From Pseudomonas abietaniphila (GTDB lineage: Bacteria; Pseudomonadota; Gammaproteobacteria; Pseudomonadales; Pseudomonadaceae): 64,000 nucleotides of DNA. Shown here in pieces: positions 1 to 24,989 of this stretch (position 1 is the stretch's first letter; every line of letters begins with the position of its first letter). Position numbers and translations under genes: made by a program. Below the pieces are notes generated by a model. That model made no database searches. It was not told where the DNA came from and was given only the letters and a program-made list of their open reading frames with translations. The stretch covers positions 62,001-126,000 of the forward strand of contig NZ_FNCO01000002.1 in assembly GCF_900100795.1 (NCBI RefSeq), written 5' to 3'.

Positions 1-6
1 AAACAG

Positions 7-2781: not shown

Positions 2782-2852
2782 GGTGGGGCAAAGGGACATG
2801 CAGGTCGCGGGCGCATTGACCTGCGGCTCATCGAAAGAGGAGGGCGATTGCG

Positions 2853-4184: not shown

Positions 4185-4893
4185 GGGGTTTAGGTGCTTC
4201 CCTGAGATGTATCCGCGAAGCAGTATCATTCCATCACCACCAGCATTTCTGGTAGGGGCATCCTTCTCAAATCATCCAAAGCATGCCTTCAGATATGCCC
4301 CGAGTGTGGGAATCCTCTGGAGGTGGGTAGATCTCCATGGTCTATGAAAAGGCATAAATGATCGCCTAAACAGCCTGCCCGACGAAAGCTAAAGACTCTC
4401 AGGGTAGCCGAAAAACATTTTGACTGGGCTCTAAGACGGTTATTTCAGGCCGATAAAAAAGAGTTGTGCCCCAAGCTGTGCTCCACTTGCACCGGCTGTG
4501 CTAGCGATCGTGAATGGCGATTCCTGACAGCTGTCGTGGTGGTGCACTCTGGACGTCAGAGTAGCTCCATGGCGGGATAGTCAGAAGCAGGGCGAGGCCG
4601 TGTCTTAAGGGGGCCGCTTGTCTCAGCGGTAGCTATATCCACCCTGACTGTGTGGTAACTACCCCGAGTACTTCGAATAGGAGGAGAGATGGACTTAGTC
4701 CTACGGATCCAGCAGCTGAAGCGCGGATCATTGATAAACATTCGTCGATGGCTGGCTTGAACTTGCCGTTCCAGCGACGACGGCGCCGCCCTTGACAGTG
4801 ATAGTGGCGAAATGCAATTTTTCGGGTCGGGTTGGATCCAGCCAGCTTCAAGGGCGGATACAAAGGAATTGTCCGTTTTAGAGGTGTCCGGGT
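4185..4893. other. 709-base intergenic stretch with att-like repeat copy 1
   Basis: There is no convincing gene here. Bases 4240-4545 are repeat copy 1, described separately. The rest (4546-4893) looks like decayed sequence. One 23-codon reading frame (4689-4760) follows a good GGAGGAG ribosome site but has no recognisable product. It could be a leader peptide for the downstream cassette or a remnant. No clear terminator or promoter was picked out. Confidence 0.5.
4240..4545. repeat. att-like repeat copy 1 (mexT-3'-end core at 4390-4418)
   Basis: The 29-base core at 4390-4418 matches the last codons of mexT at 24961-24989 apart from a few substitutions. Read on the minus strand it encodes MFFGYPESL followed by TAG. 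To its left is the arm segment with GGGGCAT and ATGCCCC motifs. To its right is a segment shared with copies 2 and 3 (…TTTTGACTGGGCTC…) that includes TGCCCC-type motifs and GCGATCG. This is the pattern of a tyrosine-recombinase attachment site with arm-binding repeats. The outer edges are approximate because similarity decays gradually. Confidence 0.75.
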
Positions 4894-6264
4894 GTGTTGC
4901 TAAATGCTTTTCTGACCGAGTACGACGAAAGCCTCGGTAATGAACTGAATATCGATCCCTTGGGGTTGCAGGTGATCTGGTCTGGATTCGGCCAGCAGAT
5001 TTTCCAGAACCGAATCAGCTCCATTTCCAACGATATCCGTAATTTCACCCTGAACCTGTTCAATCACTTCTTGATCAAGAGCCTAGTCGAGGACGACTCA
5101 ATTGCGCTAGGCAGCGGATTGAAGAGGGTCTACGATGGCAAACACGATCTCAGGTTCAAACATGCCTGTTTGGTGTACCTGGAAAATCTCTACGTCTACA
5201 GCGTCATCGCCCATGAAAATACCGCGGGTCTGGAAAGCACCGGCGTGCTGGGGATCAGCAAGGCGCGAAGAGGGTGGTTCGACAGTACAGGGAACCCTTC
5301 GCTCACCTTCAGCCATGTCCCGGAAGCGCAGGTACTGGCTCGGCAAACCCTGCTAGGCGTAAGCGGCCGCTACAAGACGCCGTTGGTAGAAATGGGCTTC
5401 TTCGACCGTCACTATCGCTACAACCTGCCCACGGCGACGGTACTGTGGAAAGACGCAGACGCGTTGATCAGCATCACCCCGACGCTTTCCCGCCTCTACA
5501 ACCTCCTGCGTCCTCACCTGCAAGACCTGCTGGCAAACAGTCGCAGCCAGCCGAAGATAAACTTCCAGGACATACCGGCAACGCTTCCCGAGGCTCTGGT
5601 CGAGGCCTTTCCGTCATCGGCGGCGGTAGGTGCCAGAACATGCGGTTTCTGGTTGTCCACCACGGACCTGGATCGGGGTGCCCCGGGAGCCTTGTATAAC
5701 GTGTTGTCTTCGCCCAAGCACGGCGACGGGGCGGTTGCGAATGTCTTTGAGGAGGCGATGAAGCAGCCGCTGCCGAAAGACGCACAGCGAAAACTCGTGC
5801 ACGTGCGCTTGCTGGAACCGCTCCTCAGCGAGCTGGACCTGTTGTTCCACCTGATGCTGGCCGAGAAATCCCAGCCCGTCAAAACGGTCTGGCAGCGCTG
5901 GAAAGCCCTGGGGCGTAATGCCTCGACCCTGGCCGCCTGTGCGGCTGCCATCAAAGCCGACAGCTCCATGACGACGGTGCTTTCCACTACTGGGCAAGCA
6001 CGCCTCCAGGGTTTGTTGAACGTGGCAGGCCAAGGCGACGCCGATGCACAGATGGACGCATTGTTGAGCTATCACGCGTTTATCATGGAAAACCGCGGCC
6101 AGTCGCCGTGGGTGACCCGAGCCGATAGCAAGCAGCTAAAGATCCATGTGCGGCCCCGCAGTGAGCCGACCCTTGCCGAGCGTCCGTTGGGTGGCTGGGT
6201 GCACCAGTACTACATTCCCCAGTTTCGGCACTTTCTTGCGGGCTTGCATGGGGTGGCCGCATGA
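4894..6264 (+). CDS. Conserved unknown protein of a PLD/SNF2 cassette, 456 aa
   Basis: First gene of a tightly overlapping three-gene cassette. An in-frame TAG at 4879 limits the start to GTG 4894 or later. The N-terminal block (residues about 15-65) describes a compact helical domain beginning LNIDPLGLQVIWSGFGQQIF and followed by charged helices. The protein has no membrane segments or classical catalytic motif. The overall layout (short N-terminal motif, then a sensor-like helical region) is loosely reminiscent of DUF6361 proteins found beside helicases and PLD nucleases, but I cannot confirm homology. The stop overlaps the ATG of the PLD gene by four bases (ATGA), so translation is coupled. 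It is likely a structural or sensing partner in a defence system. Confidence 0.8.
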   Translation: MLLNAFLTEYDESLGNELNIDPLGLQVIWSGFGQQIFQNRISSISNDIRNFTLNLFNHFLIKSLVEDDSIALGSGLKRVYDGKHDLRFKHACLVYLENLYVYSVIAHENTAGLESTGVLGISKARRGWFDSTGNPSLTFSHVPEAQVLARQTLLGVSGRYKTPLVEMGFFDRHYRYNLPTATVLWKDADALISITPTLSRLYNLLRPHLQDLLANSRSQPKINFQDIPATLPEALVEAFPSSAAVGARTCGFWLSTTDLDRGAPGALYNVLSSPKHGDGAVANVFEEAMKQPLPKDAQRKLVHVRLLEPLLSELDLLFHLMLAEKSQPVKTVWQRWKALGRNASTLAACAAAIKADSSMTTVLSTTGQARLQGLLNVAGQGDADAQMDALLSYHAFIMENRGQSPWVTRADSKQLKIHVRPRSEPTLAERPLGGWVHQYYIPQFRHFLAGLHGVAA

Positions 6265-8162
6265 AGCTGATCGGAGCCTTCAAGCAGCAACTGAAGGAAA
6301 TGGGCGAGCTCAAACGGGTCTGGCTGACCACGTTCAACCTCAACCTCGGTTTTGTCGAATCCCACCTGCTTCCGGCAGTGCTGAACATGGACCCGCCGCG
6401 CAACCGCATGGACTTCGAAGGCTTTCAGGCACACCTAGTGGAGAAAGATATCGACTTCCGGGTGTTCTGCGACAAGCGGATGCTGGGCGCCGACCAGTAC
6501 AAGCGCACGGCCATCAACGTTCATTGTGTGTCTGCTCGCGCTCTGAATTCTTACCATGGTTTTACCGATCAGACGTTGTTTCACCCCAAGCTCATCTTTC
6601 TGGAGAGCAAGAATGGGGAGATGGTGTTGGGGGCGGGCAGCGCGAACCTGACTGTCGGCGGCTGGGGACGCAATCAGGAGGTGTTCACCTTCCAGCGCGT
6701 CTGCAGTAACGACCAATATAGGCAGATTCAGAAGTTCTTCGATGCCTTGGCCGAGCCTCTGGAACTGGAGCTCCGCTGGCGCACCCGGCCTCGCCTGGCC
6801 GAAGGGCCTGATTGGCAATTTGTGCACAGTTTCGACAAACGCACCTTCCTTGAGCATCTCATGGCACAGGACCGCATCACCTCACTGCAGATTTGGTCCC
6901 CCTACCTGGCGGCCGACGTGCCCAACTTGCTAGAGCGGCTCCAGGAGCAATCAGGTAATCCTGATTTGAAGGTGGCTCTGGTCGCGGACCGCTTAGAGGG
7001 GCGGTACTTCCGGACGCCTTGGAGTGAGGCGTTGGCGGCCTGCATAGAGACGGAAACGCTGGCGTTCCACAAAAACCCGTCTCCGCCTGATCTGCTCACC
7101 GAAATCACCCATGCCAAGGCCTGGCTGTGTCGCGCCCCCCAGGGGAGCTGCCTGGCAATCGGCTCATGGAATTTCACCCATGCCGGTACCAGCAGTTTCG
7201 AGCAGCGCAATATCGAAGCCGGTATCGTGCTGAACTTCAAGCGTGATGCAGACATGCTGGGAGCGCGCATTGACGTCACCGAAGCCGATTTTGCCAGCGA
7301 GCAGTTGTTGTCCGACGATCGTCTGGATGTGCCGGAAGAGCTGCCTTTCGACCTGCAGGTGCTCTATGACTGGAAGCGTGCCTGTTTTTCAGTATCAGGC
7401 AACTGGTGGGTAGGCAAACCCCGTGATGGTTATTGGCTGAAGTTACCGGGTGTGAGCGAACCGATTCCGCTGCAGTGGCGCACACGGCGCCATGAGGGTA
7501 TGTGGTTGCTGATACCGATCAAGCAGGTGACACCCGATAACGAAGCCATGCTCGCCGACCATAGCTACGGCATTCTTCTGCGCAAGAACAGCCCTGCGGT
7601 GTTCAGGGGCATCATTGTTGAGAGCGGTCAGTCTTTCCGACGCGCACAAAGTTTCGAGTTACTGAAGGACCTGCTCGACAGTCTGTTGGCCGGAGTCGAT
7701 CCGAACAGCGACACCAACACGGTGTTGCGCTCTTGCCTGCGCAATGGTGCCGGGCCGGATGAGGACCTGACAGCGCCCTCAACCGTTATCGAACAGGACG
7801 CGTTGTCTTACTTCCGGTTGTTCCACGCAGTCGAACAGTATCGCGAGCGTTTGCGTGCAGCTTCCGATACGGTCCAGCTCGAGTTGTGGGTATTCGGTCA
7901 TCCGGGCTGTCTCCAGGAACTGGCGGCCAAGGCACGACAGCAGATTAACGGCAGCCCGCCCAGCGTGTTCAACTGGTTCCTCGCCCAGGAGGTCAATTCT
8001 CTTCACCAACTGGCAGCCGGGCTGTACCGCAAGGCCGGCCACCGTACGGCGGGAGACGAGTTGTGGTCGACACTACAGGTGCCGACGCCACGCTTGCCGA
8101 AGGAACTGCAAAGGAAGCTGGCTTATGTTCGCCGTGTTCAGAAGGAATGTGGTTATGCGTGA
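6261..8162 (+). CDS. Phospholipase D-like (HKD-type) nuclease protein, 633 aa
   Basis: Two PLD-type half-sites are visible. The first is H108-P-K110, followed about 17 residues on by GAGSANLT. The second is H284-A-K286, followed by IGSWNFTHAG. Two HxK…GSxN motifs in one chain are what PLD-family nucleases use to build one active site. A C-terminal region of about 330 residues has no recognised motif and may bind the partner proteins. The gene overlaps the upstream gene by 4 bases and the downstream SNF2-like helicase by 8 bases, so the three products are very likely made together. PLD plus helicase pairs are known in several anti-phage systems (for example DISARM and Mokosh), but the remaining partners here do not match those. 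Confidence 0.88.
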   Translation: MKLIGAFKQQLKEMGELKRVWLTTFNLNLGFVESHLLPAVLNMDPPRNRMDFEGFQAHLVEKDIDFRVFCDKRMLGADQYKRTAINVHCVSARALNSYHGFTDQTLFHPKLIFLESKNGEMVLGAGSANLTVGGWGRNQEVFTFQRVCSNDQYRQIQKFFDALAEPLELELRWRTRPRLAEGPDWQFVHSFDKRTFLEHLMAQDRITSLQIWSPYLAADVPNLLERLQEQSGNPDLKVALVADRLEGRYFRTPWSEALAACIETETLAFHKNPSPPDLLTEITHAKAWLCRAPQGSCLAIGSWNFTHAGTSSFEQRNIEAGIVLNFKRDADMLGARIDVTEADFASEQLLSDDRLDVPEELPFDLQVLYDWKRACFSVSGNWWVGKPRDGYWLKLPGVSEPIPLQWRTRRHEGMWLLIPIKQVTPDNEAMLADHSYGILLRKNSPAVFRGIIVESGQSFRRAQSFELLKDLLDSLLAGVDPNSDTNTVLRSCLRNGAGPDEDLTAPSTVIEQDALSYFRLFHAVEQYRERLRAASDTVQLELWVFGHPGCLQELAAKARQQINGSPPSVFNWFLAQEVNSLHQLAAGLYRKAGHRTAGDELWSTLQVPTPRLPKELQRKLAYVRRVQKECGYA

Positions 8163-10878
8163 CACTGGTTGGGGTGGGTTGAAGCCGGAACAGGTCGCGA
8201 ACTGGATCAACTTCGACGCTGGCAATGAGGCGTGGCAATACTCGCCTAACGACATCTCCATGCCCACCCGGCAAATCGAGGGTGTTGCTGGCTTGTGGAA
8301 CAAGTTGTCCATGCACAATGTGGCATTGCTGGCCGACGAGGTCGGCATGGGCAAGACGTTCCAGGCATTGGGCGTCATCGCGTTGCTGTGGAAGCTGAAG
8401 CCCGACGCCAAGGTGCTGGTCATGGCACCCCGGGAAGACATATGCCACCAGTGGGCGCGTGAGTATGCCGCGTTCCTGCGCGACCACTACAAGGGCGGTA
8501 CGCACCTTACCTGCGACGGGCCTGAAAAAAGCCCGCTGCACGAGGCGCAGATTCACAAGCGGCTCCATGATCTGAGTGATGCAGTGGCGCAGGGTAGCGG
8601 GCAGTTTTACTTCACCACTATCCATTCGCTCAGCAACTTGGTTGAGCGGGAGGATAAGCAATCGGGTGATGTGTCCGTCAAAGCCCAAGAAGAGGCTGGC
8701 AGGATTCACCGTGCGCTCAAGTCATCGTTGGGGAACAAGGGCTTTGACCTGGTCGTGGTGGATGAAGCTCATTATTTCCGTAACGCCGATGGCAGCTCTC
8801 AACGCGCCAAGGCCGCACGGAAGTTCTTCGGGGAAGTAGGCGGCCGGCTCGGGCAGAAAGTCTTGTTGCTTACCGCCACGCCTAGCCATTCTTCGCTCCG
8901 GGATATAGCCTCCATTCTCGGGTATTTCATCGACCCGTCTGCTGACGGGCCACAACCTGCTCCGGATGAGTTGCTCGCCAAGTATGCATTGCGCCGTTTG
9001 CGCCTTATGCAGGGCGCTGAGGGTTACCGCAACAAATACAACTACCGCCATGAAAAGACGCTGCCGGCCAGTTTTCTGGACAATCCTGAGGCCGAGATGT
9101 TTTTTGCGTTGTACCAGAAGAAGCTGGTGCAGCAACTAGGCCAGAGGGGTAGCGGCCGCAGATTCCTGTACGGCTACCTCGAAGGGTTCGAATCCGTTGG
9201 CACGCAGCCGGGTACCGCAGCCAGCGCGACCGCATCACTGGAACAGGAACACTCTGCACAGGCATTTTCCGGTGCCCCGGATACCGGGATTCTGACTCAG
9301 CTCACTCAATTGCACCGTGAGTATTTCAAGAGCCATCCCGATCATCCCAAGTACGACACGCTGATGATCGAGTGCCAGCCTGAGGATGTCTTCGACACTC
9401 GTATGCCGTTGCATGAGCACAAGCACCTGGTATTTGTGAGGCGGATTGCTTCGGTGCGGGAGATAACCCAGCGCATGAACGCAGCCAGTGACCTGATGTT
9501 GGCGCGGCGTATCGTCCAGGCCTGGCACCCGGGAGATCCGAAGAAGTTGGTGGAGGGGTGGCGGAAGAAGAATTGGTCGCGAGCCTTCTTCATTCGATAT
9601 GTCTCCCAGCAGGTGGCTGAAGAATCGGGCTACCATGATTTTCTTCAAGATGAAGATCTGACTGAGGTCCGTGATGGCTTGGGTGGCGATGAAAAGCTGG
9701 CCTCGCACATTGCTGACTTGTTCGTGGTCAAGAAACAGAGCAAAGACCGGACCACGGACTGCTCGAATTTCAGCTTGCGCTTGCGAAAGCCGGAGAGCCT
9801 GTTTTCGTTGTTGCTGGAGCCTGCAAGTGACTACCGCTGCGGCGGATATACCGGATATGACCGCAAGCGCGTGGGCGAGCGGGATCGGGACGATTACGGG
9901 GGCGCAGCGCTGCGGGCTCGTCTTGCGCTTCACGAGGAGCGCACGCGGGGAGCGGGTGAACAGTACGAAAAAACGATGCCGACTTTGTGGGGCTTGATGT
10001 ATGAAGGATTGCCCGAAACTACACGCCAGCGGCTGGAAACGTGGCTGGGTCTTGGGCCGCAGGGCCGAGCTATCGCCGAGAATTTTGGCAATTATGTGAA
10101 GGTCGGTTTCCTGTTTGCCAGCCCGGTCATCATTGAACTCTACAGTTGGTTCACCGAGTTTCGTCGTAAGGATAAGGGGGGCGATGTTCAAAGTCGTTAC
10201 CTGGAATTCATCAAGTCGCTGAGACCACGCCTGCACGATTCGCTGCTTCGGCAGTACTTCATTGCAGCGCTGGATTCCTTCGAGCAGATCTGTGGAAAGA
10301 TCACCGCCCACGGGCTATCTGACTGGAAGAAGGACTGGCGCATCCTGACCAGCCTGCAAAGCCCTGCGTGGTACGCCAGTAGTCATTCCGGCGATCGCCG
10401 ACGGTTGATTCTCGGTTTCAACAGCCCGTTTTACCCCAACGTGCTGGTGGCAACTTCGGTCTTCCAGGAGGGGGTGAACCTGCACCTTCAATGCAGCAAG
10501 GTGCACCATTACGGAATTGCCTGGACACCCGGTGATAACGAACAGCGTGTAGGGCGTGTGGACAGGCTGTTCGGTCGGGTGAACCGGCAATTGCAAGAGA
10601 AGGGCGAGGCTGAGCTCGCGATCCACTATCCCTATCTCGCCCGGTCGTTCGATCAGGAGCAATTGGCTTCATTTGTACTTCTCAAACATGCGGTTGAGGC
10701 GCGCATGGATGCCTGTCGACATACGTCGTTCAATGATGAAATCGACCTGCGCCATGTCGCGGATGACTGGGAGCGATACCTGCGAAAGCCAGTGAAGGGG
10801 ATGAATTCGACGGACCCGTTTCCTGCGCGTTTCGGAACTGGGTCAGTTCCATTGGAGGCCTATGATCCGAGTGTGTGA
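8155..10878 (+). CDS. SNF2/superfamily 2 helicase-like ATPase, 907 aa
   Basis: An SF2 translocase of the SNF2/RapA-like type. Walker A is EVGMGKTFQA (K67-T68), the DEAH box is VVVDEAHYF (D203-H206), motif III is LLTATPSHSS, and the C-terminal motif VI region is NEQRVGRVDRLFGR (about residue 797). These give a complete ATPase core, with a long insertion between the two lobes. The reading frame extends further upstream, but the ATG at 8155 overlaps the PLD gene stop (ATGCGTGA) and immediately precedes the conserved part, so this start is preferred. It probably remodels or translocates DNA for the PLD nuclease in the same operon. Confidence 0.9.
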   Translation: MRDTGWGGLKPEQVANWINFDAGNEAWQYSPNDISMPTRQIEGVAGLWNKLSMHNVALLADEVGMGKTFQALGVIALLWKLKPDAKVLVMAPREDICHQWAREYAAFLRDHYKGGTHLTCDGPEKSPLHEAQIHKRLHDLSDAVAQGSGQFYFTTIHSLSNLVEREDKQSGDVSVKAQEEAGRIHRALKSSLGNKGFDLVVVDEAHYFRNADGSSQRAKAARKFFGEVGGRLGQKVLLLTATPSHSSLRDIASILGYFIDPSADGPQPAPDELLAKYALRRLRLMQGAEGYRNKYNYRHEKTLPASFLDNPEAEMFFALYQKKLVQQLGQRGSGRRFLYGYLEGFESVGTQPGTAASATASLEQEHSAQAFSGAPDTGILTQLTQLHREYFKSHPDHPKYDTLMIECQPEDVFDTRMPLHEHKHLVFVRRIASVREITQRMNAASDLMLARRIVQAWHPGDPKKLVEGWRKKNWSRAFFIRYVSQQVAEESGYHDFLQDEDLTEVRDGLGGDEKLASHIADLFVVKKQSKDRTTDCSNFSLRLRKPESLFSLLLEPASDYRCGGYTGYDRKRVGERDRDDYGGAALRARLALHEERTRGAGEQYEKTMPTLWGLMYEGLPETTRQRLETWLGLGPQGRAIAENFGNYVKVGFLFASPVIIELYSWFTEFRRKDKGGDVQSRYLEFIKSLRPRLHDSLLRQYFIAALDSFEQICGKITAHGLSDWKKDWRILTSLQSPAWYASSHSGDRRRLILGFNSPFYPNVLVATSVFQEGVNLHLQCSKVHHYGIAWTPGDNEQRVGRVDRLFGRVNRQLQEKGEAELAIHYPYLARSFDQEQLASFVLLKHAVEARMDACRHTSFNDEIDLRHVADDWERYLRKPVKGMNSTDPFPARFGTGSVPLEAYDPSV

Positions 10879-11066
10879 GATTCTGCAAAGTAAATGCTGC
10901 CCCAGGCCCTGACTGGCGACTTCTGGGGGGGGCTGGCTTGCCCGCGACCACAGGGTCTTGCTGAACATCGGGTCAGGTTTGGTTTTCTGTTGGAATCTAC
11001 CAGGCCACCTTGATCATTTCGAATTCGTTCGTGGCATAGTGTCGTTTTGAAATCAAGGTCGAGTCA

Positions 11067-11768
11067 GTGAGTTTCAAACAGAAGCGAGACGCCTATGCAT
11101 ATCCAATGGTCGGCCTCTGTGGCACGTTAGCGTTGCATCGTGAGGTGGCGTTCAATACGTCTTCGAAACTCGAAGCGCATCACGCCGGGTTGATGTGCTC
11201 GACTGTGGATGACGAGGTGTTGCTTGGGTATCTGAGTACCCTTTACTGGGGGCATTACGCAGGTGCTGCTGGGCGCACGACCGCCAATCGTGCGTTATCC
11301 AGGGTACAGTTGGCGTTGGTAGGGTCCAGCTTCGTGCGCAATGAAAAAGTCTGTCAGAGACCCGGTATCAATCACTTTGGTCGTGGCAAGGCTGTTGCCT
11401 TGATCAGAGATGCCAAGCGCCTTCTCGACGACCATCAGTATGGTGAAGCAGTGAAGCTACTTTGTGCTTTGCCACAATTGGGCTTTGCGTTTGCATCCAA
11501 AGTCGCCGCTTTCCTTGCCCCCGATACTTGTGGGGTCATTGATTCTGTTATCGCAGAAAAACATCCGAACTTCGGATTCAAATTGCGCGGAGGATATGTG
11601 AGCGATGTAAAAGAAAACGTTGCACGCTACCAAGCCTATTGCCAGGCACTTTGCATCGAGGCAGAAAAGCAGAACCAACTGGGCGAAAGCGCTTACTGGA
11701 AGGAGCGTAACGGCGAGTTGCGCGCTTGGCGTGCTGTCGATATCGAGCGTGCGTTGTATAGCCTGTGA
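11067..11768 (+). CDS. Helix-hairpin-helix (OGG/DNA-glycosylase-like) protein, 233 aa
   Basis: The segment from residue 135 to 162 reads LPQLGFAFASKVAAFL then APDTCGVIDS. This resembles the helix-hairpin-helix plus GPD-type loop of DNA glycosylases, with K145 and D159 at the places expected for the catalytic lysine and aspartate of OGG-like enzymes. The N-terminal half is unrecognised. The start is a GTG with only a weak ribosome site. It lies 188 bases after the helicase gene in the same orientation and within the same att-bounded module. A base-sensing or base-removing accessory of the cassette is plausible. It could equally be an independent DNA-binding protein. Confidence 0.7.
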   Translation: MSFKQKRDAYAYPMVGLCGTLALHREVAFNTSSKLEAHHAGLMCSTVDDEVLLGYLSTLYWGHYAGAAGRTTANRALSRVQLALVGSSFVRNEKVCQRPGINHFGRGKAVALIRDAKRLLDDHQYGEAVKLLCALPQLGFAFASKVAAFLAPDTCGVIDSVIAEKHPNFGFKLRGGYVSDVKENVARYQAYCQALCIEAEKQNQLGESAYWKERNGELRAWRAVDIERALYSL

Positions 11769-15528: not shown

Positions 15529-15599
15529 ATTGACTGGCTAAATTAGTGCGCTGTCTTTTTTTTGCGGTGGATATTTATTAAGGAAGGGCTTAGATTAAT

Positions 15600-16883: not shown

Positions 16884-16989
16884 TGATTCTAGTTTTTAAC
16901 GAAAATTCAATAAGTCATTGAGCCCGATTTATCGTGCTGGCGATGTAGTACTAGGTTTTGTACGAAAAGTATGGTCATCGAAAATTGTG

Positions 16990-17116
16990 GGGGCGTGCTT
17001 GCCCCGCGATCTGCCGCAGCGCGGCAGCAAAGCCTGAATTTGCGGCATGTTTGACACTGTTTGATATCGGGTAAAGGAGCGCTTCGCACCCCATCGCGGG
17101 GCAAGCTGCTCCCACA
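16990..17116. repeat. REP-type inverted repeat pair
   Basis: The arms GCTTGCCCCGCGAT (left) and ATCGCGGGGCAAGC (right) are inverted copies flanking a region with a smaller stem, TGCCGCAGCGCGGCA. The right arm ends in GCTCCCACA, the usual edge of Pseudomonas REP elements. It lies between two convergent genes, a common place for REPs. Confidence 0.8.
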
Positions 17117-17134
17117 AAACTTTTCTAACAGAGC

Positions 17135-17500
17135 TTAGGTCAATTGCACAGCGTTCGACGGCGAGCAGCGAGTGATTGTTCAAAAAGAGGATTGTTGATC
17201 GTTAGGCTGGTGGCATCTTTCTCAGAACATCCAATACATGCCCTTGGATATGACCCCGAATGTGCAATCCTCTGGAATTAAATGGATCTCCATGGTCTAT
17301 GAGAAGACAGAAATAATCAGATGAACAGCCTGCCCGACGATGCCCAAAGACTCTCAGGGGCGCCGAAGAACATTTTGACATGGCCCTAGGACGGTGGTTT
17401 AAGACCATAAAAACTAATAATGCCCTCAGTTTTGCTCCCAGATACACAGGGTACGAGAGCCCTCGCAACCGGCGACTTCTCACGGACTCCAGTATGGCAG
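17135..17500. repeat. att-like repeat copy 3 (mexT-3'-end core at 17345-17373)
   Basis: The core CAAAGACTCTCAGGGGCGCC…AACAT matches the mexT end. On the minus strand it encodes MFFGAPESL, but the stop codon position now reads TTG. The left arm (17200-17344) aligns with copy 2 (TGGTGGCATC…) and the right arm (17374-17500) aligns with copies 1 and 2, including GCCCTCAGTTTTGCTCCC and GTATGGCAGT. This is the most diverged copy. It divides module 2 from module 3. Confidence 0.72.
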
Positions 17501-17744
17501 TTGATGGCTTTCGGTATAATCCCTCATTGGATCTGGAGGTAGGGTGCAGGGCTCATCAAGGACAAGCTAATCCGCTCTCGTAGCAATCGCCCAATGCAGC
17601 TGTTCAGGGTATATGTTGGCCTTGGGCAAACGATGCCGGTACGGGGAGAGACAGGGTGGCTGCTCACCACCGAAACGTCAGTGGCGGCGAAAGTAGGAAC
17701 ATGCCGTTTAGATTTCCAGGCTTGGCTGTTTGATCAATAAGGGC

Positions 17745-18506
17745 TTAAACCTCTGCTTCCCAGGGGCGACGCACGAATCGGACATAGACGCCCAGGGCGT
17801 CAACTGGTGATGAGTATTTCCTTACCCCGACGTCGGAGCTGATTAGAAGGATCGGTGCACTCGGTTTCGCGGGGACCTCAGTGACCAACCAAGGGGCGAG
17901 GCTTTGCACAGGCCGGTGTAGGAATGCTGTTTCGCGCCGTAGCCCCAGTGCCTCACGTACGTTCTCCTTCGAGGAACTGCGCACGTCTTTGCAACTGATC
18001 CCCGCAAAGACCTGCAAGTGAGACGGACGCTCTCCCGCGCCAGGTTCAAGTACACAGACGTCAAGCTCGTGTCGGGCCTGGCGGGGGGCGTTTCCCGGAT
18101 ATCCGCCGTTATGCGCCCAGCTCAGCGACTCAAACTCGACCGATGTCCAAGCTTCCCCTACTGGTCGGCCAGCGGCATCGAGCAGATCAAAGTGTGAGAA
18201 TCTCTGGCGATCAGCTAGAGCTGGTTTACTCGCCACAATCACCTCAGACGCTTTACCTCCTTTGGAAGGTGGCCGATGAATGATTGACCCTTTAGGGTGT
18301 GCACGCCGAAATACCCTCAGCAAGCGAGCTAGAACCAGCATTTCGTACAGCTTATCGCGGGTCATCGCTTGTAGTTGCAGAGGGGGAGGCGCTTTCGCGG
18401 CAATATCGAAGAGCGCGCCCACAGCTTTGACCAAGTCAGGTGCTGCCGGTTGGTTCTTCTTATTTTTCTTGGTGCTTGCCGCCAGGGGTGATGGAGTCGT
18501 ACTCAT
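17745..18506 (-). CDS. Hypothetical protein with possible PD-(D/E)XK-like nuclease core, 253 aa
   Basis: Not recognised with certainty. After a lysine-rich, low-complexity N-terminus (to about residue 25) comes a helical part. A stretch then reads SVEFESLSW, HELDVCVL (D149) and FAGISCKDV (S171-C-K173). The order E…D…(S)xK resembles a restriction-endonuclease-like core in which the usual acidic residue of ExK is replaced by serine. The ATG overlaps the stop of the upstream gene by four bases (ATGA), so the two form an operon. It lies near the outer edge of module 3. The nuclease assignment is inference. Confidence 0.72.
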   Translation of the reverse strand: MSTTPSPLAASTKKNKKNQPAAPDLVKAVGALFDIAAKAPPPLQLQAMTRDKLYEMLVLARLLRVFRRAHPKGSIIHRPPSKGGKASEVIVASKPALADRQRFSHFDLLDAAGRPVGEAWTSVEFESLSWAHNGGYPGNAPRQARHELDVCVLEPGAGERPSHLQVFAGISCKDVRSSSKENVREALGLRRETAFLHRPVQSLAPWLVTEVPAKPSAPILLISSDVGVRKYSSPVDALGVYVRFVRRPWEAEV

Positions 18507-18973
18507 AAATCCTCGTTGGTCTCTCGTGGGAGAAATTTGAGCAACGCTTCCCGTAACGCAATTTGCTGCTTCGTCGGGCGCCGTCCAAGGTTATGTCGTA
18601 GGTTGGTTTTTCGGTTGCCGACGCGCATATGCATTGACTCGACCTGCTGGTCGCGTGCGAGCAACTCGTTGAGTTCGCGGCGAACTGCCTGTTCGGTTCC
18701 GCTGTTCACCGGAAAAGCGAGCACCATCAGTAACGACAGGGCCTCTTCAAATCGCTCTTTGGTCTCGCTGCGCCTTGCGGCTTCCGCGTAGCCGCTGCTT
18801 GACCTATTACGCTGTGGCTCCTCTCCAAGGGGCTCATCAGGCTCGACTGGCGCGCTGAGCCTCGCCAGCTCCATGAACTGGTGCACCAATGGTCCCTCAT
18901 ACGTGCAAGCTCGTCGATGTATCTCGCGAAGTGCCTGTTCCAGGTCGTCCTCACCTCGTAATGTGATCTGCAT
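18503..18973 (-). CDS. Hypothetical protein, 156 aa, operon partner of the 253-aa protein
   Basis: Unrecognised small, charged, helical protein. The N-terminal QITLRGEDDLEQALREIH looks like a folded ferredoxin-like or swapped-hairpin element, and the middle is rich in Glu and Arg. The C-terminal part is basic (RVGNRKTNLRHNLGRRPTKQ), which could contact nucleic acid. A strong GGAGG ribosome site precedes the ATG at 18973. The stop overlaps the downstream 253-aa gene start by four bases. A regulator or partner of that protein is plausible but not shown. Confidence 0.7.
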   Translation of the reverse strand: MQITLRGEDDLEQALREIHRRACTYEGPLVHQFMELARLSAPVEPDEPLGEEPQRNRSSSGYAEAARRSETKERFEEALSLLMVLAFPVNSGTEQAVRRELNELLARDQQVESMHMRVGNRKTNLRHNLGRRPTKQQIALREALLKFLPRETNEDL

Positions 18974-19101
18974 GTTTCCTCCATGATTGTTTCAGTGTCG
19001 TGGGTCAGACAGCTATGCCGTATTTTTTCAGAGACGACTGTGCGACCTTGACTCATCCACTGATGTCTCGAACTTCTGTCCTGCTGGCTCGGCAACCAGG
19101 T

Positions 19102-20046
19102 TTAACGCAGTATCGAGTCAGACTTAGTCTCTGAAGCAGCGCTGCTGAGCAGCCAAATCAGCGCAGGGGATTGCTTGACGTGTTCTGCCATGGTTGTCAT
19201 TGCAACCTTGAGAGGCGGAATAGTCGACACCACGACATCGTAATTCTCGGCAGGCTGTAAACGAACGCCAATGATGACACTTTTGTCTTCTTGTTCGCGG
19301 GCGTAAGCAATAAAGCCATTCTCCAACGGATGCACATATTCTCCAGTCCGCACGTCGGGATAGTTTGGGGCCTTGTGGAAATCACTTCGTAGTGCAATGA
19401 CTTTGGTCACGGCCTTGAAGGCCGGGCTGAAGTTGTCGGTAAGGTAGTCGTAGCTCATGGTAAATAGCACGCTAATGATAAGAGCCCCTGCACCATGGAA
19501 CATGATCATACTGCGCGATTGCTTGAATTTAGCCTGAAAGCCGAGGAGCGCGGCCAAGCGGGTCATATGTTGCCAGGCTGCTTCGAATGGCAGGCTAATC
19601 ATCGCGATGACCATGATCAGCATTGCTGTCAGACCAAGGAGTATTGCCACCACAAGCAGCCACGATGGAATGTAAAACAGCAACGCGAGAAAGCCGACTG
19701 TCAGATCAAAACTTTGAGGGGGCAGCCCTAACGTCTCGGCAACCGCGAAACGCGCGCATGCTGTGGATATCAGCAGTGCAAGCAGATGCATAATGATGAT
19801 GGGCGTTTTGGCGAATGGCTTATCCCATGCTGTATGGAGCCAGCGGGCGAAAGGGATGCACCAGGCAATGAATCCGCAGATTATCAATGCAGCCGCGACC
19901 GTCGTCCCGATGGTAAGCGCGGATATGCCCGTATATTGGGAAGCTGCAATCGTGATGAGGTACGTAACTACCGAGGCGAGATAGAACCGTTGGGATACGG
20001 AATATTGCTGGAATTTGGCGAGCAGTTTTGCTTTCAGAGCTATCAT
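19102..20046 (-). CDS. Membrane protein of the Hxs module, 314 aa, unknown function
   Basis: Five or so hydrophobic segments are visible, near residues 20-37, 43-63, 85-103, 115-153 (probably two helices) and 183-202. A soluble C-terminal region of about 110 residues follows. An AAGGA ribosome site precedes the ATG. It is the last gene of the same-strand run that starts with hxsD, 140 bases after the 101-aa gene. It does not resemble a known transporter. Being downstream of a secreted modified peptide, it could help export or anchor it, or act in immunity. This is inference from position only. Confidence 0.75.
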   Translation of the reverse strand: MIALKAKLLAKFQQYSVSQRFYLASVVTYLITIAASQYTGISALTIGTTVAAALIICGFIAWCIPFARWLHTAWDKPFAKTPIIIMHLLALLISTACARFAVAETLGLPPQSFDLTVGFLALLFYIPSWLLVVAILLGLTAMLIMVIAMISLPFEAAWQHMTRLAALLGFQAKFKQSRSMIMFHGAGALIISVLFTMSYDYLTDNFSPAFKAVTKVIALRSDFHKAPNYPDVRTGEYVHPLENGFIAYAREQEDKSVIIGVRLQPAENYDVVVSTIPPLKVAMTTMAEHVKQSPALIWLLSSAASETKSDSILR

Positions 20047-20186
20047 TTTTCATCCTTGAACTTCTTTTCAGTGCTTCTAAATCCATGCGGATAGCAATGC
20101 TTGGCCGCCTTGATGTACGTCTTGTTCTGCCAGTTGAGGTGGATGACCTCGTGGCGGCCCATCAAACCCCCACGAGTTCAGCTTAT

Positions 20187-20492
20187 TTATGTGGGCACGA
20201 ATGACGAATCAATCGGCTGGCAGACAATTCGCCACATCCCGCGCACGCCGTCTTCGACCCAAGTGCCTTCCAGCACATTCGAGCCTTCGAAGCGGTGCAG
20301 CGTTGCTCTGCCGTCGAAGCCTTCTGCTTGCAGTTCGTAATGCCCCAGGCCTTTTGCCTGGCCTCGGTATTGCCAGGTCTGCCCCGCGTCGTCATAGGAG
20401 ACGGTGATAAACTCGATGTCGATCGTAACCTTGCAGGGTTGATCAAACGACGCGGCACTGCTGGGGCGGAAGGTGTCCATTTTGGCGTACAT
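20187..20492 (-). CDS. Hypothetical small protein, 101 aa, Hxs module
   Basis: Unrecognised. The sequence alternates beta-type residues (VTIDIEFITVSYDDAG, WQYRGQAKGLGHYEL, LEGTWVEDGVRGMWRI), which suggests a small beta-barrel or lipocalin-like fold of the kind that measures or binds a ligand. No signal peptide is visible. It has a good AAGGA ribosome site and follows the 137-aa gene by 32 bases on the same strand, so it belongs to the hxs transcription unit. Confidence 0.68.
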   Translation of the reverse strand: MYAKMDTFRPSSAASFDQPCKVTIDIEFITVSYDDAGQTWQYRGQAKGLGHYELQAEGFDGRATLHRFEGSNVLEGTWVEDGVRGMWRIVCQPIDSSFVPT

Positions 20493-20524
20493 GTTGGCGT
20501 CCTTGTAAAGATATCAGGAGCTGT

Positions 20525-20938
20525 TCAGGGCAGCAGCCAAGTGCTGTTTGGGGTGGTGGACCGGATGCCGACTGCCTGGCACTGCTCCAGAATCGGCAGA
20601 ATGTAAGTGATATTGGTACGGCCCGGCTTGCCTTCTGCTCTGTAACGAGCCGCCTGGCAAAGTGGGCCGGCTTTTTCGTACGTATGGTTGGAGTTGATTT
20701 CCACCGCTTGTGCTTGGCCGAAATGACTGTTATCGGCGAGGTAGTCCAACGTTTGCTGGAAAGCTGCTCGAGTCAGCGCCAACTGCGAGTCTTCCGATCC
20801 GGTCTCAATCACAACGCGATTTGCATCAACGGTCGTGATTCGGAAACGGGCGCTACGCGACGGTGTTTGCAGTTCCTTGCCTTGCAGGCGGCTGATCAAT
20901 GCCCAGAGAGTGTTGTCGACTTGAATGATGTGCTGCAT
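20525..20938 (-). CDS. Hypothetical protein, 137 aa, Hxs module
   Basis: Unrecognised. It begins MQHIIQVDNTLWALISRL, has a compact alpha/beta middle (RFRITTVDANRVVIETG) and a C-terminal half with YILPILEQC. There is no signal peptide or membrane segment. A GAAGGAAA ribosome site precedes the ATG. It lies 51 bases downstream of hxsA in the same direction. It could be a cytosolic accessory of the peptide-modifying system or a cargo gene. I found no motif that decides. Confidence 0.68.
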   Translation of the reverse strand: MQHIIQVDNTLWALISRLQGKELQTPSRSARFRITTVDANRVVIETGSEDSQLALTRAAFQQTLDYLADNSHFGQAQAVEINSNHTYEKAGPLCQAARYRAEGKPGRTNITYILPILEQCQAVGIRSTTPNSTWLLP

Positions 20939-20989
20939 GGGATAATTTCCTTCGTTACTGAACGGACGCTAGCTTTAACCTGAAGCGAT

Positions 20990-21598
20990 TTATGGAATCT
21001 TGATACTCAACGCATTCAGCGATGGCGTATCCATCCGGCCATTCACAGTCAGCCCACTGTCCATTTGAAAGGCCATCAACGCACCACGTGTTGCTTTGCC
21101 CATCACCCCATCAATGGAGCCTTGGTAATACTGGCGCACCATCAGCGCGGTCTGCACACGGGTGACCAGGTTGCTTTTCTGCTCATTGGTCGCGCGGCTC
21201 TTAGAAGTGCTCGAACTTGTCCCGCTGGTAGTGCCAGACGACTGATAAAGGCTGTTGCTGCTTGGAGGGCTGCTCGAAGGACTCGGCGCGCTGTAGCCTC
21301 GGGTACTAGTAGCGGGTGGGCTGTAGTAGCGAGGTGCGCTATAGCCACCCGAGCCGCTGTAGTGAGAACTGTGCGAGCTGTGGGACCGGTGAGAACTGTG
21401 CGAGCGATGCGCCGCATAGATGTTGACGGTGTTTGGCGCATTGAGCGTATCGGCAAATACCGGGGGCTGTAGCTTGTCGTTGGGTTGCCAGTTCGCATCG
21501 GCGAGTGGCAGATGGCCCGCCTGTGCCAGGGTGGTACCTGCTATTGGCAGCAGGCTGATCCCACTGATCAGGACTTTCCAGCGGTCGAGCAATTTCAC
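20990..21598 (-). CDS. hxsA: HxsA, His-Xaa-Ser repeat protein with peptidoglycan-binding domain
   Basis: This 202-aa protein is the substrate of the His-Xaa-Ser system. It has a signal-peptide-like start (residues 1-25, ending LAQA). Six perfect HxS triplets at residues 64-81 follow (HRS HSS HRS HSS HSS HYS), then a Ser/Tyr/Pro-rich linker. The C-terminal peptidoglycan_binding_1-like domain (about 143-200) contains YYQGSIDGVMGKATRGAL. The triplets are the expected site of modification by the two radical-SAM maturases encoded upstream. The GTG start overlaps the hxsC stop by one base (TAGTG), and AAGGAG is well spaced before it. The peptidoglycan domain suggests a periplasmic or cell-wall destination. 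Confidence 0.87.
   Translation of the reverse strand: MKLLDRWKVLISGISLLPIAGTTLAQAGHLPLADANWQPNDKLQPPVFADTLNAPNTVNIYAAHRSHSSHRSHSSHSSHYSGSGGYSAPRYYSPPATSTRGYSAPSPSSSPPSSNSLYQSSGTTSGTSSSTSKSRATNEQKSNLVTRVQTALMVRQYYQGSIDGVMGKATRGALMAFQMDSGLTVNGRMDTPSLNALSIKIP
21356..21409 (-). repeat. Six tandem His-Xaa-Ser codon triplets in hxsA
   Basis: Eighteen codons encode H-R-S, H-S-S, H-R-S, H-S-S, H-S-S, H-Y-S without interruption (residues 64-81). The 9-base units are near-identical at DNA level (GAGCTGTG / GAGCGATG patterns on the plus strand), so the array can expand or contract by slippage. Confidence 0.88.
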
Positions 21599-22830
21599 TA
21601 CGCACTCCTTGCATAGGCGCTAAAGGCCTCGGTCGATAGTAGTTGTACGCCGCGGCTCTGCCAGCGGTCGGTGTGGGATCTGAAGAAGCCAGAGCAATGT
21701 TTGACGGCAGCGCATTGCTGGCAGGTATCGATGAACAGGTTCTTCCAGTCCGAGATGCTCTGGCGGGCGAAACGCGAGAGGTGGGCCGGGATCAGGCACA
21801 GGGGCAAGTTGTAGATCGAAACCGGCATTCCGCGGTTGAACAGGAAATACACGGCCTGGCTCAACGACTCCTGATAGTCCAGCGGGTCAATCCACAGTTC
21901 TTCGTAGTTCTTCCTGGCCAGGCCCGTACTTTCGATACCCATCAGCGCAACATGCCGCACGAAGGGCAAGTTCCTGAACACGTAGTAGGCGAGCTCGGGC
22001 AAGCGTGGCGTGGTCAGGCGATTGAGCACCACGCGTATCTCGATGATCTGGTTGGCCCGCGCCAGGTTGTAAAGACCTTGCAGGGTTTCGCTGAACGCGC
22101 CTGGAGCCTGCACCACATGGTCATGGTCTTCGGCATTGTCGGCATACAGCGGGATGCCCCAGCTCAACTGAGGGTGGCCGATGGCAGAGAGTGCTGCGAT
22201 CCAGCTCGGGTCTTGGAACAGACGCCCGTTGCTGAGCACATGAATGGATTTCTGCGGCAAAACGGCTTTGCACTTGGCCAGGATTTCGAGCAGGCCGCCG
22301 CGATAAAGCGTTGGTTCTCCGCCGCTGATTCCCAGATTTTCCTCGCCCGGGTCCATCAGGTCGATCAGCCGTAGGTTCTCCTCGATGTGCCAACGGTCAT
22401 CGATATCTTTGGGCGGCTGCGAGCACATCAGGCAGAGGCTGTTGCAACGATCGGTCATGAACAGCAGGTTGCTGTCTGAGCCTCGTCGATAGAGCACTCG
22501 CACCAACGCGTTGCCTGGTGTGATGGCAATGACATCGCCGGGCTGCACGACATTCGCATCTTTGGGGGTGTGCAGGTGTGGCCGCGCGCTGTCGAAGTCG
22601 CCGATCAATGGCTCTGGGATCAGGAATCCACCCACTGGTAATGAGAGCAGATGCGGGCTCCGTAGGCGTTCATCGTTTGGCAGCCAAAGCAGCAGGTCAC
22701 CGAACTCAGCGCTTCCGGCACAAACAGCCAGGCCTTGTCCGATGAACTCATCCAGAGTGATGACCTTGAGCAGTTTCGGCTCATTCAGGTGATGGATTTC
22801 GAAGTGGGTATCTTTGCGCAGCATCGCCAT
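21598..22830 (-). CDS. hxsC: HxsC, His-Xaa-Ser system radical SAM maturase
   Basis: A radical-SAM protein with the cluster motif CNSLCLMC (C129, C133, C136 counted from the ATG at 22830), a GEEN…SGGEPTLYR block that fits the usual GGEP motif, and a C-terminal cysteine pair (CQQC…HC) that could bind an auxiliary cluster. The frame is open further upstream, but the ATG at 22830 overlaps the hxsB stop as TGATG with AGGGG just before it, so this start is favoured. It is the third gene of hxsD-B-C-A. The family modifies HxS repeats in HxsA. The chemistry is, to my knowledge, not settled. Confidence 0.87.
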   Translation of the reverse strand: MAMLRKDTHFEIHHLNEPKLLKVITLDEFIGQGLAVCAGSAEFGDLLLWLPNDERLRSPHLLSLPVGGFLIPEPLIGDFDSARPHLHTPKDANVVQPGDVIAITPGNALVRVLYRRGSDSNLLFMTDRCNSLCLMCSQPPKDIDDRWHIEENLRLIDLMDPGEENLGISGGEPTLYRGGLLEILAKCKAVLPQKSIHVLSNGRLFQDPSWIAALSAIGHPQLSWGIPLYADNAEDHDHVVQAPGAFSETLQGLYNLARANQIIEIRVVLNRLTTPRLPELAYYVFRNLPFVRHVALMGIESTGLARKNYEELWIDPLDYQESLSQAVYFLFNRGMPVSIYNLPLCLIPAHLSRFARQSISDWKNLFIDTCQQCAAVKHCSGFFRSHTDRWQSRGVQLLSTEAFSAYARSA

Positions 22831-24332
22831 CAGCCCCTGTAACCCGGAAACCGGACATCGTTGTAAGAGCGCCTGTTCAACCAAGACAGCAGTACCCTCT
22901 GTACGTTGTCGTCGCCATCGCAAAGCAGGCCGAAAAGATGCTTCAGCAGCCCCATGTTCTTCTTGCAGAAGCTGCTGAACACTCGGTGTCCGATCGGGTC
23001 AGCTTGGCGGGCATAGTGTTCGACGGGGTCAGCACCACAGTACGGGACAAGTGCGCAATCGGAGCAGCCCGGCAGCGCCTCTGCTACACCACTGGCGAGC
23101 AACGCATTCATAACGGGCGATGTGAGTAATTCAGACAAGGGTTGCCGCACGGTGCCAAGTTTCAAGCCGTCTTCACCCATCTCCAACAACATTCGGGCTT
23201 CGTCCGAGGGATAGACGTAACCGTCATAGTTATAAACCAGCGCCGCAGTGCCTGCGCCAGCAGGGGAACGCAGGTCTACATAGCCGGAGGAGAAGGGTGT
23301 CAGGATATTCTTCAGCAACAGGCTCGTATAACTCTCTGAGAGGTATACGCCCTGCTGGTTGATATGCAGCAAATAGGCCAGTGCCTTCTTGTAGAAGGCC
23401 AGGTATCGCTCAATAGGGTAATCAAGTCGATGGGCACTCTTGGTGGCAAACCCATAAGGGCTCAGAGGCCGAAGCGAGATGCTGGAGAAGCCCTGACTTA
23501 CATACTCATCGATGATCGCTTCAGGCTGTTCGAGGCTTCTTGAAGTCAGCGTGGTCAACGCGGAAACTGCATCATGGCCAAGGCGCTCACGGACCCATTG
23601 GATGCCTTTTACTGTGCGTTCGTAGGAGTCTCGTGACGGTGTAGGGCGGTTGGCATTGTGCAAGGGCGCTGGCCCATCGAGCGAGGTCGAAAACTGGATG
23701 CGATTTTGTTCTGCAAAGTCGAGTATTTCCTCCGTCAGGTGGTGCAGCGTGGTGGTGATGACGAACTGGATATCCCGTTGTTCGACCACGTTCCGTTCAG
23801 CGACCCATTCGACAATCTGGCGGACGCGCTCGAAAGCCAGAAGCGGCTCGCCACCCTGAAACTCCACAGTGAGGGCGGGAGCGTTCGATTCGAACAGGCG
23901 ATCGACCGCCGCCAGTGCATCCGCTTCCGAAAGGTCGTGGTCGGATCCTCCCAGAGGGGCCCGCGACACCTGGCAGTACTGGCAGGTGTGGTTGCAACGC
24001 AATGTCACTACGAACAAGTGCAGTGCAGGGCCCTGGAAGAGGAAGTCCTTGCGACTGCGATACTGCGCGGCCATTTCCGGGAACGGGTCGTGGCGGCCTG
24101 GTTCGTAGATGAAGTGGCGGGCCAGCAGGTCCTTGTAAAAAGGTGTGCTTGCTTGAACGTCGAAGTAACTGAGGGCTCGTAATTGCGCGTCGTTCACGTA
24201 CATGTACTCACCGGTATCGGAGGTGAGCAGGATGTCACGGTCACGTCCCGTGTTCATGCGCATGAATCGAAAAGGCAGCAAGTGGTAGTGCTTGGCGTCT
24301 GTCGCTATCAGTGTCACTGCGAAACCCCACAT
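22830..24332 (-). CDS. hxsB: HxsB, His-Xaa-Ser system radical SAM/SPASM maturase
   Basis: A radical-SAM enzyme with CNHTCQYC (C113, C117, C120), a GGEPLLAFERV motif, and a C-terminal SPASM-type cysteine set (CSDCALVPYC and a later SSFCKK). This matches peptide-modifying maturases that use auxiliary iron-sulfur clusters. The early segment LLPFRFMRMN is typical of HxsB-like starts. The longest frame begins at ATG 24332. A GTG at 24317 overlaps the hxsD stop by four bases (GTGA) and may be the true start. Translation is coupled to both neighbours. It probably works with HxsC on the six HxS triplets of HxsA. Confidence 0.87.
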   Translation of the reverse strand: MWGFAVTLIATDAKHYHLLPFRFMRMNTGRDRDILLTSDTGEYMYVNDAQLRALSYFDVQASTPFYKDLLARHFIYEPGRHDPFPEMAAQYRSRKDFLFQGPALHLFVVTLRCNHTCQYCQVSRAPLGGSDHDLSEADALAAVDRLFESNAPALTVEFQGGEPLLAFERVRQIVEWVAERNVVEQRDIQFVITTTLHHLTEEILDFAEQNRIQFSTSLDGPAPLHNANRPTPSRDSYERTVKGIQWVRERLGHDAVSALTTLTSRSLEQPEAIIDEYVSQGFSSISLRPLSPYGFATKSAHRLDYPIERYLAFYKKALAYLLHINQQGVYLSESYTSLLLKNILTPFSSGYVDLRSPAGAGTAALVYNYDGYVYPSDEARMLLEMGEDGLKLGTVRQPLSELLTSPVMNALLASGVAEALPGCSDCALVPYCGADPVEHYARQADPIGHRVFSSFCKKNMGLLKHLFGLLCDGDDNVQRVLLSWLNRRSYNDVRFPGYRG

Positions 24333-24613
24333 CCAGCGAGCGCAGCTCGGGCCAGGATTTCACGTAACCCTGCTGTTTCGCGGTTGATATGGTCGCGTAG
24401 GGCGAAGTCGTTCAGATGCTGAAGGATCAGCGAGTGAGCCTGTTCCAGGGAAAGCGTAGGCCTCGCTTCAGCGGGGTGGGCCGTGAGGCTTATCTGATTG
24501 GTTTCAATACCGACCTGGATCGCGACAGTGTCGGCCAGGGAATAAGCGGCGCGTTGCACCACGCTCAGCGGGTAGGCTGAGCTGTCGAGTTTCAGCGTGA
24601 CTGGCCATGTCAT
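24314..24613 (-). CDS. hxsD: HxsD, His-Xaa-Ser system small protein
   Basis: A 99-aa protein at the head of the hxs operon. The sequence pattern LDSSAYPLSVVQRAAYSLAD followed by a beta segment and ending in a helical RETAGLREILA fits the small HxsD family, which always accompanies HxsB and HxsC. Its role is unknown; a peptide-recognition or chaperone function is a reasonable guess. The operon promoter must lie in the 346 bases between this gene and mexT, which also hold repeat copy 4. Confidence 0.82.
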   Translation of the reverse strand: MTWPVTLKLDSSAYPLSVVQRAAYSLADTVAIQVGIETNQISLTAHPAEARPTLSLEQAHSLILQHLNDFALRDHINRETAGLREILARAALAGCGVSQ

Positions 24614-24960
24614 CGGAACCGCGCCTTCAAATCCGTTGGAAACGTGTGGATTTTGCAGGTTGCCGAGGCATTATGCCATCATAATTTTTTAAATTTGCAC
24701 GCATTTGTCCAGCGTGGTGGGTGGCGCGCTCACTACGGCTCGGCCATTAATACGGGGTAGGGCCGAGGGTTCATATCTCCCTCAATCCACCCATCCTCAT
24801 CAGTAGCCTGCTTGGCCTCAGGCTGGGGGCATCCTTTTCAAACCATCCAAAGCATGCCCTCAGATGTGCCCCCAATTTAGCAATCCATTGGAAGTGAATG
24901 GAGCTCCATGGTTTGTTGAGAGGCAAAAGGGATCAGATAAACAGGCTGTCCGGCGACGCT
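24614..24960. other. Intergenic stretch between hxsD and mexT
   Basis: It holds an AT-rich segment (about 24670-24700, ATCATAATTTTTTAAATTTGC) that is a plausible promoter region for the hxs operon on the minus strand. The arm part of repeat copy 4 runs from 24818. There is no gene. The mexT and hxs genes are both on the minus strand, so any mexT terminator must also lie here. Confidence 0.5.
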
Positions 24961-24989
24961 TAAAGACTCTCAGGATCGCCAAAGAACAT
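24818..24989. repeat. att-like repeat copy 4, including the mexT 3' end (core 24961-24989)
   Basis: The core is the authentic 3' end of mexT. The minus strand reads ATG TTC TTT GGC GAT CCT GAG AGT CTT, then TAA. To its left, 24818-24960 is nearly identical in pattern to copy 2 (CCTCAGGCTGGGGGCATCC, GTGCCCCCAATTTAGC, GGAGCTCCATGGTTTG). To its right the sequence is mexT coding and not the right arm of copies 1-3. This is what a chromosomal att half-site next to an integrated element looks like. Confidence 0.82.

Follow-up and report, generated by a model that had tools for sequence, protein, structure and literature searches.

Tandem integrase-free modules between mexT and mexE at an insertion hotspot of Pseudomonas

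The window, a 64,000-nucleotide stretch of Pseudomonas abietaniphila (positions 62001-126000 of contig NZ_FNCO01000002.1, hereafter C23), holds a gene for a LysR-type regulator, which we take to be mexT, and divergent from it a zinc alcohol dehydrogenase gene, presumably mexS (Table 1). MexT is the regulator of the mexEF-oprN efflux operon, and the genes that we take as mexE, mexF and oprN encode HlyD, ACR_tran and OEP domains and run up to C23:45523. The names mexT, mexS and mexE are our assumption, adopted from a first reading of the sequence and from the gene order in P. aeruginosa, whereas the searches assign these genes to families only. A repeat search of the window found a 170-nt family with copies at 4249, 12118, 17204 and 24820, in which identity to the reference copy is 66-76% for the other three; a second family, of 194 nt, has members at 4291, 12160 and 17246 only. 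A profile built from the genome's own copies, with three of the four window copies in its starting set, matched all four with E values of 3e-53 to 4e-70. The original prediction had placed repeat cores at 4390, 12259, 17345 and 24961, and both searches recovered them; the right arm that it assigned to the first three copies and found missing in the fourth corresponds to the 194-nt family, which lacks a fourth copy. Its total of four repeats stands for the window but not for the genome, where a search returned six matches, all on C23 and within one 41-kb stretch. Because two of the six lie upstream of the window, the island starts 16.3 kb before it, beside mexE.

The island thus bounded is 41.3 kb long, lies between mexT and mexE and is divided by the six repeats into five modules. 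The outermost repeat consists of core and right arm, both arms are present in the inner four, and the copy at mexT has left arm and core; this order of half-site, full sites and half-site is the pattern of tandem site-specific insertion. The motifs noticed at the outset on both sides of the cores are far above shuffled expectation, with 45 occurrences of TGCCCCC/GGGGGCA in 19 full repeats compared with a mean of 0.5 in base shuffles, and TGCCCC[CT]A is found in neither direction in 2 of the 19. As predicted, the last core is the 3′ end of mexT: it covers the final codons of the LysR-family gene, the stop codon of which lies inside the island's left arm.

Table 1 Features of the mexT island and its flank in P. 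abietaniphila.
Feature	Position in window	Position in contig or locus	Strand	Content or evidence
Distal repeat, core + right arm		C23:45662-45754		Profile positions 142-234
Full repeat		C23:49767-49996		Profile search
Module 2 (right end in window)	1..4252	Module C23:49997-66252		Proteins of 924 and 443 aa (ORFs)
Module 2 giant proteins, in a row	Into 1-2781	L008:1280-8692, 8689-14781 (C23:51280-64781)		2470 and 2030 aa
Full repeat, modules 2/3 boundary	4253..4484	C23:66253-66484	+	Profile positions 3-234, 223 bits
Module 3	4485..12130			PDC-M27 A 4894-6264, B 6261-8162, C 7855-10878; 233- and 95-aa ORFs
Full repeat, modules 3/4 boundary	12131..12353	C23:74131-74353	+	Profile positions 1-234, 228 bits
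Module 4	12354..17205			Helicase-like protein, 843 aa (12589-15120); 427-aa protein (15600-16883)
Full repeat, modules 4/5 boundary	17206..17438	C23:79206-79438	+	Profile positions 1-234, 203 bits
Module 5	17439..24821			HxsB 22830-24332; HxsC 21598-22923; peptidoglycan-binding protein 20990-21598; 99-aa ORF 24314-24613; further ORFs
Left arm + core running into mexT (attR-like island end)	24822..24992	C23:86822-86992	+	Profile positions 1-171, 179 bits
mexT, LysR-type regulator	24960..25916		-	Pfam LysR_substrate, HTH_1; ends MFFGDPESL
mexS-like zinc alcohol dehydrogenase, divergent from mexT, island flank	26347..27369		+	Pfam ADH_zinc_N, ADH_N

Module 3 matches components A, B and C of the PADLOC candidate defence system PDC-M27 (E = 4e-189, 6e-254 and 0, respectively), and module 5 holds a His-Xaa-Ser radical-SAM cassette in which HxsB and HxsC scored over cut-off; a four-gene set of this type was found again in 8 of the first 27 genomes. 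Neither the giant proteins of module 2 nor the part of that module in the window matched a family over cut-off in Pfam, PADLOC or NCBIfam, and the giant pair is possibly an undescribed system. Pfam searches found no recombinase family among the scanned ORFs of the island and no PF00589 match in it; all 19 PF00589 matches of the genome lie elsewhere.

The comparison across Pseudomonas revealed empty sites as well as varying DNA at mexT. Two close relatives, G152 and G068, have mexT-mexE gaps of 124 and 458 bp and represent natural empty sites, to which the left flank of the P. abietaniphila island aligns up to the core and its mexT from the core on. The gap survey covered 87 genomes among the matches listed for both mexT and mexE (150 and 146 entries), 19 of which were set aside for different contigs, opposite strands or non-collinear order. 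In the remaining 68 the gap ranges from 124 bp to 216.8 kb, at less than 0.7 kb in 8 genomes, 0.7-3 kb in 10, 3-60 kb in 40 and larger in 10, the largest gaps having been checked as islands in some genomes only and the best match in some possibly being a mexE paralogue. The DNA between the cores likewise differs, and this variation bears out the suggestion that the mexT end is a general integration hotspot. With two candidates scored per genome, the repeat was matched in 97 of 298 Pseudomonas genomes, including 11 matched over fewer than 60 bases only, some by the mexT core alone. The flanks beyond the distal repeat are unrelated among G173, G239 and G286, so other DNA too lies between mexE and the repeats.

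In related islands a P4-type integrase gene, for which we coin the name IntmexT, adjoins mexT. The IntmexT of genome G022 has 436 amino acids and matches PF13356, PF22022 and PF00589 over cut-off (Arm-DNA-bind_3, Phage_int_M and Phage_integrase), that is, arm-binding, central and catalytic domains, and in the G022 locus sequence its first codons, ATGCCCCCA, are themselves an arm motif. With four candidates scored in each genome, homologues at E = 1e-40 or better, many of them distant, were detected in 72 of 398 genomes, and 29 of the best 30 IntmexT loci also hold mexT. Of these loci, 24 contain a near full-length gene that begins 105-182 bp from mexT, three of the genes having an internal stop. 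Near full-length, stop-free IntmexT of at least 77% identity is found in only 13 of the 97 repeat-bearing genomes, and no IntmexT was found in the P. abietaniphila genome at E 1e-40. Viral contigs yielded only distant relatives of at most 35% identity, except one 44-residue piece at 48%, and all matches in 383 phage and 732 plasmid records were below 60%, the best among those listed being 31-33%. At locus L273, residues 3-34 of IntmexT lie beside mexT, other pieces 4.7-5.3 kb on and a repeat copy beyond, and the gene looks as if it were split by inserted DNA.

Left arms next to IntmexT and those of integrase-free modules have the same layout of one reverse TGGGGGCATC and two forward motifs 12 bp apart (six arms of each class compared, one deviating per class); the 10 right arms compared belong to a single type, in which two motifs are spaced by 12 bp. 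The number of motifs varies, and the arm motif is absent from 1 of 38 integrase-free attR copies, 1 of 16 IntmexT attR copies and 3 of 25 distal copies. With their own profile the integrase-free left arms score 112-199 bits and the IntmexT left arms only 22-81, which marks the two left-arm site types as distinct. IntmexT presumably binds the TGCCCCCA motifs.

A survey of 80 mexT loci, namely the best 80 matches to the P. abietaniphila MexT in named genomes, found IntmexT beside mexT at 8 (complete at one, L252), an integrase-free arm at 22, an empty site at 12, other DNA with mexE within 6 kb at 11 and other DNA at 27, with one contig counted twice (L302, L304) and a few loci (L256, L305) reaching less than 5 kb beyond mexT. 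The doubly counted contig, NZ_MOBM01000038.1, titled as a joined contig, carries the integrase-free arm at each of its two mexT loci, which are separated by 1.1 Mb; this may reflect a duplication or an assembly artefact.

Host and element can be told apart by markers on either side of GTCGCCAAARAACAT. Among integrase-free attR copies, 33 of 39 show the element form to the left and all 39 the host form to the right. The right-hand marker is of the element form in 21 of 24 distal copies, the other 3 being variants, and 16 of the 24 have a non-element left side. Of the 18 full copies, 14 show the element form to the left and 16 to the right. Empty sites have a non-element left side (12/12) and the host form on the right (11/12). 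Host and element switch inside the core, within about 15 bp, although unexpected left markers in 8 of 24 distal and 6 of 39 attR copies count against this simple picture. The end of MexT changes with occupancy. It follows directly after DP[DE]SL at 22 of 22 loci with the integrase-free arm, 8 of 8 with IntmexT and 26 of the 27 whose fetched stretch contains other DNA but no mexE, at 6 of the 11 with mexE less than 6 kb but more than 0.7 kb away, and at 0 of 12 empty sites, where the tail is one residue (11 sites) or five residues (1 site) longer. Islands that abut mexT thus provide the gene with its stop codon, from the inserted left arm (56 of 57 loci versus 0 of 12 empty sites). The original prediction had each insertion keep a rebuilt gene end; the marker switch in the core agrees with this, and the rebuilt end includes a stop codon supplied by the inserted element. 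The sole locus among the 27 to keep the longer natural MexT tail is L298, where a different insertion mode may be at work.

We assembled 69 repeat-bounded modules (874 kb in total), accepting modules of at least 300 bp and repeats above 24 bits. A search restricted to tyrosine recombinases found no match in 64 of the 69, and a leave-one-out control recovered 21 of 22 integrases. Of the five modules with a match, G022.1 contains a complete IntmexT, G139.2 a split and G121.4 a truncated version, G043.1 a 5′ remnant and G175.1 an unrelated 221-aa enzyme. Since these islands were sampled with the integrase-free repeat as query, IntmexT islands are undercounted among them, and the 80-locus survey is the fairer measure. 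The 221-aa tyrosine recombinase of G175 (L050:7791-8453) closely resembles one encoded outside the island in the P. abietaniphila genome (L094; E = 2e-137).

At the level of sequence, integrase-free modules are common to different species end to end. Modules 4 and 5 of P. abietaniphila match G092 over their full lengths, at 98.9% over 4852 bp and 97.6% over 7383 bp, and are neighbours there in the same order at the same mexT spot, compared with 82% identity for mexT and 73% for mexS. The same was found for G165.1 and G281.1 (99.8% over 15,758 bp; mexT 85%), which stands alone in G281 and in a row in G165, for G165.2 and G168.1 (99.7%; mexT 91%) and for G173.1 and G286.1 (98.8% over 16 kb; mexT 85%). 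Shared modules are thus 97.6-99.8% identical between species in which mexT and mexS differ by 9-27%. At the mexT end, identity between P. abietaniphila and G092 falls stepwise across three consecutive bins of 150 bp, with values of 97%, 89% (left arm and core) and 76%. We did not count G173 and G239 because their mexT genes, 96% identical, make the pair too close to show transfer.

The cargo of the modules is mixed and not purely defensive. PADLOC at E 1e-20 was applied to 100 proteins drawn at random from the 325 non-redundant ones of 200-1100 aa that integrase-free modules encode, and at least 11 distinct proteins matched (25 of 90 families listed), including GajA, GajB, HamA, mad3 (two proteins) and PDC-M27A and B of the P. 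abietaniphila island. The corresponding figure for flanking genes was 1 of 31, a DinG helicase, the control comprising 31 of 32 flank ORFs after removal of one overlapping reading frame. Pfam matches also included dehydrogenases, transporters and regulators (25 of 137 families listed).

These observations support the interpretation that related elements inserted repeatedly and site-specifically at the end of mexT, in particular through the natural empty sites and the P4-type integrase beside mexT in related islands. Neither of the outcomes that the original prediction named as refuting it applies, since the DNA separating the cores is variable and the repeats cluster near mexT. We consider it probable that the repeats are mexT 3′-end attachment sites at which five integrase-free modules were inserted successively by an IntmexT from other islands. 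This P4-type tyrosine recombinase would bind the arm motifs and cross over in the repeat core, acting on integrase-free modules either in trans or, once it has landed beside them, in cis; modules would stack at mexT one after another, the inserted left arm supplying the mexT stop codon. The position of the integrase gene next to mexT in related islands and the similar arm motifs at island ends argue for this reading, whereas the distinct left-arm types, the lack of IntmexT in the P. abietaniphila genome, the scarcity of intact IntmexT in repeat-bearing genomes, the unexpected left markers, the unrelated flanks beyond the distal repeat and the longer MexT tail at L298 argue against it. Alternatively, the modules may use an unsampled recombinase specific to them, for which the integrase-free left arm would be the site, IntmexT being only a cousin that has the same mexT target. 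The well-conserved, distinct integrase-free left arm and the 19 PF00589 matches in a genome without IntmexT would fit such an enzyme, but we consider it unlikely because, across the 69 modules, no other integrase lies beside an integrase-free left arm except the 221-aa enzyme of G175.1, about 4 kb from the repeat, and because the two classes agree in their right arms and in the spacing of the motifs.

Exchange by homologous recombination through mexT, mexE or the repeats, the latter being relics of old insertions, is considerably less plausible still. Shared modules often have neighbours in the same order, as modules 4 and 5 do in G092, and the repeats could act as short homology; however, in the species pairs profiled, identity drops from 95-100% to 76-83% where the core meets mexT with no long imported mexT tract, the marker switch sits in the core, and the 15.8 kb shared by G165.1 and G281.1 at 99.8% is single in one genome and part of a row in the other. 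That the repeats are a dispersed family, close to mexT by chance and unrelated to integration, can hardly be credited: among 80 repeat matches in genomes with a listed mexT position, 73 are on the mexT contig, and the distance to mexT is at most 60 kb for 69 of the 73, which already contradicts it, all six P. abietaniphila matches fall in one 41-kb stretch, and the phage and plasmid collections searched gave no match to the repeat. What speaks for it is that 3 of the 73 same-contig repeats, including one match of only 25 bases, are more than 250 kb away from mexT. In G282, a repeat match at C1:654656 lies 297 kb from mexT and about 16 kb from broken IntmexT pieces (670899-671782), possibly a second insertion site or a rearrangement. 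Within the preferred reading of insertion by IntmexT, we suggest only tentatively, as a joint claim that may well prove wrong, that the integrase-free modules are a standing exchangeable class across the genus rather than decayed islands, with a conserved double-armed site, defence, peptide-modification or metabolic cargo and whole transfer between Pseudomonas species, stacked by whichever cell-mate supplies IntmexT.

Integron cassette arrays are likewise rows of cargo units with degenerate recombination sites between them and an enzyme supplied elsewhere; the likeness is one of analogy, since the modules here are 1-51 kb and their sites, with core and arms, resemble phage attP. IntmexT shares the domains of P4-type integrases and adjoins an attachment site whose motif repeats would suit an arm-binding domain, but differs from others in having mexT as its target. 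Cis-mobilizable elements (CIMEs) and tandem accretion have been defined in Streptococcus, and in the sections available of the two papers CIMEs resemble the present modules in having attachment sites without integration genes, rows at a gene 3′ end and mixed cargo, and stand beside integrase-bearing elements or without them (PMC5704250, PMC7563491). The P. abietaniphila modules are flanked by the attachment sites of an integrative element, as the site order, the core marker switch and the empty site indicate; no integration genes were found in the island, nor tyrosine recombinases in the 64 modules noted above, and no conjugation or mobilization genes were found among the island's scanned ORFs (Pfam; small ORFs excluded). 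They differ from the Streptococcus CIMEs in that the target is a regulator gene in Pseudomonas, that five integrase-free units stand with no integrase-bearing element left, and that their left arm is a distinct type and no obvious deletion product of known IntmexT islands; broken IntmexT genes and one 5′ remnant are signs of decay in some islands. The ssrA islands of Dehalococcoides, according to the part of the report available, likewise stand in tandem, with copies of a gene's 3′ end at their boundaries; 16 of them have an integration module and 15 do not, and the authors suggest CIMEs for the latter (PMC3146451). Those islands have a CcrB-like serine recombinase and a tmRNA target (PMC3146451), as opposed to a P4-type tyrosine recombinase and a protein gene with a replaced stop codon here.

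The insertion hotspot at mexT is real and large. Mechanistically it belongs to a known kind, CIMEs in tandem accretion, and no precedent closer than these and the ssrA islands came to light. What looks new is the site, its integrase and the pool of integrase-free modules that have a site type of their own; titles and the beginnings of abstracts in the literature yielded no description of integration at mexT, an absence that counts as weak evidence only. Having an integrase of its own and boundaries that can be read, the mexT 3′ end is a place in Pseudomonas to seek new defence and peptide-modification systems as ready-cut modules, and it makes testable whether integrase-free islands are decay products only or a class maintained by helpers. 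Insertion also separates mexT from the mexEF-oprN operon and alters the end of MexT, so that the final MexT residues reveal at a glance whether the site has been used.
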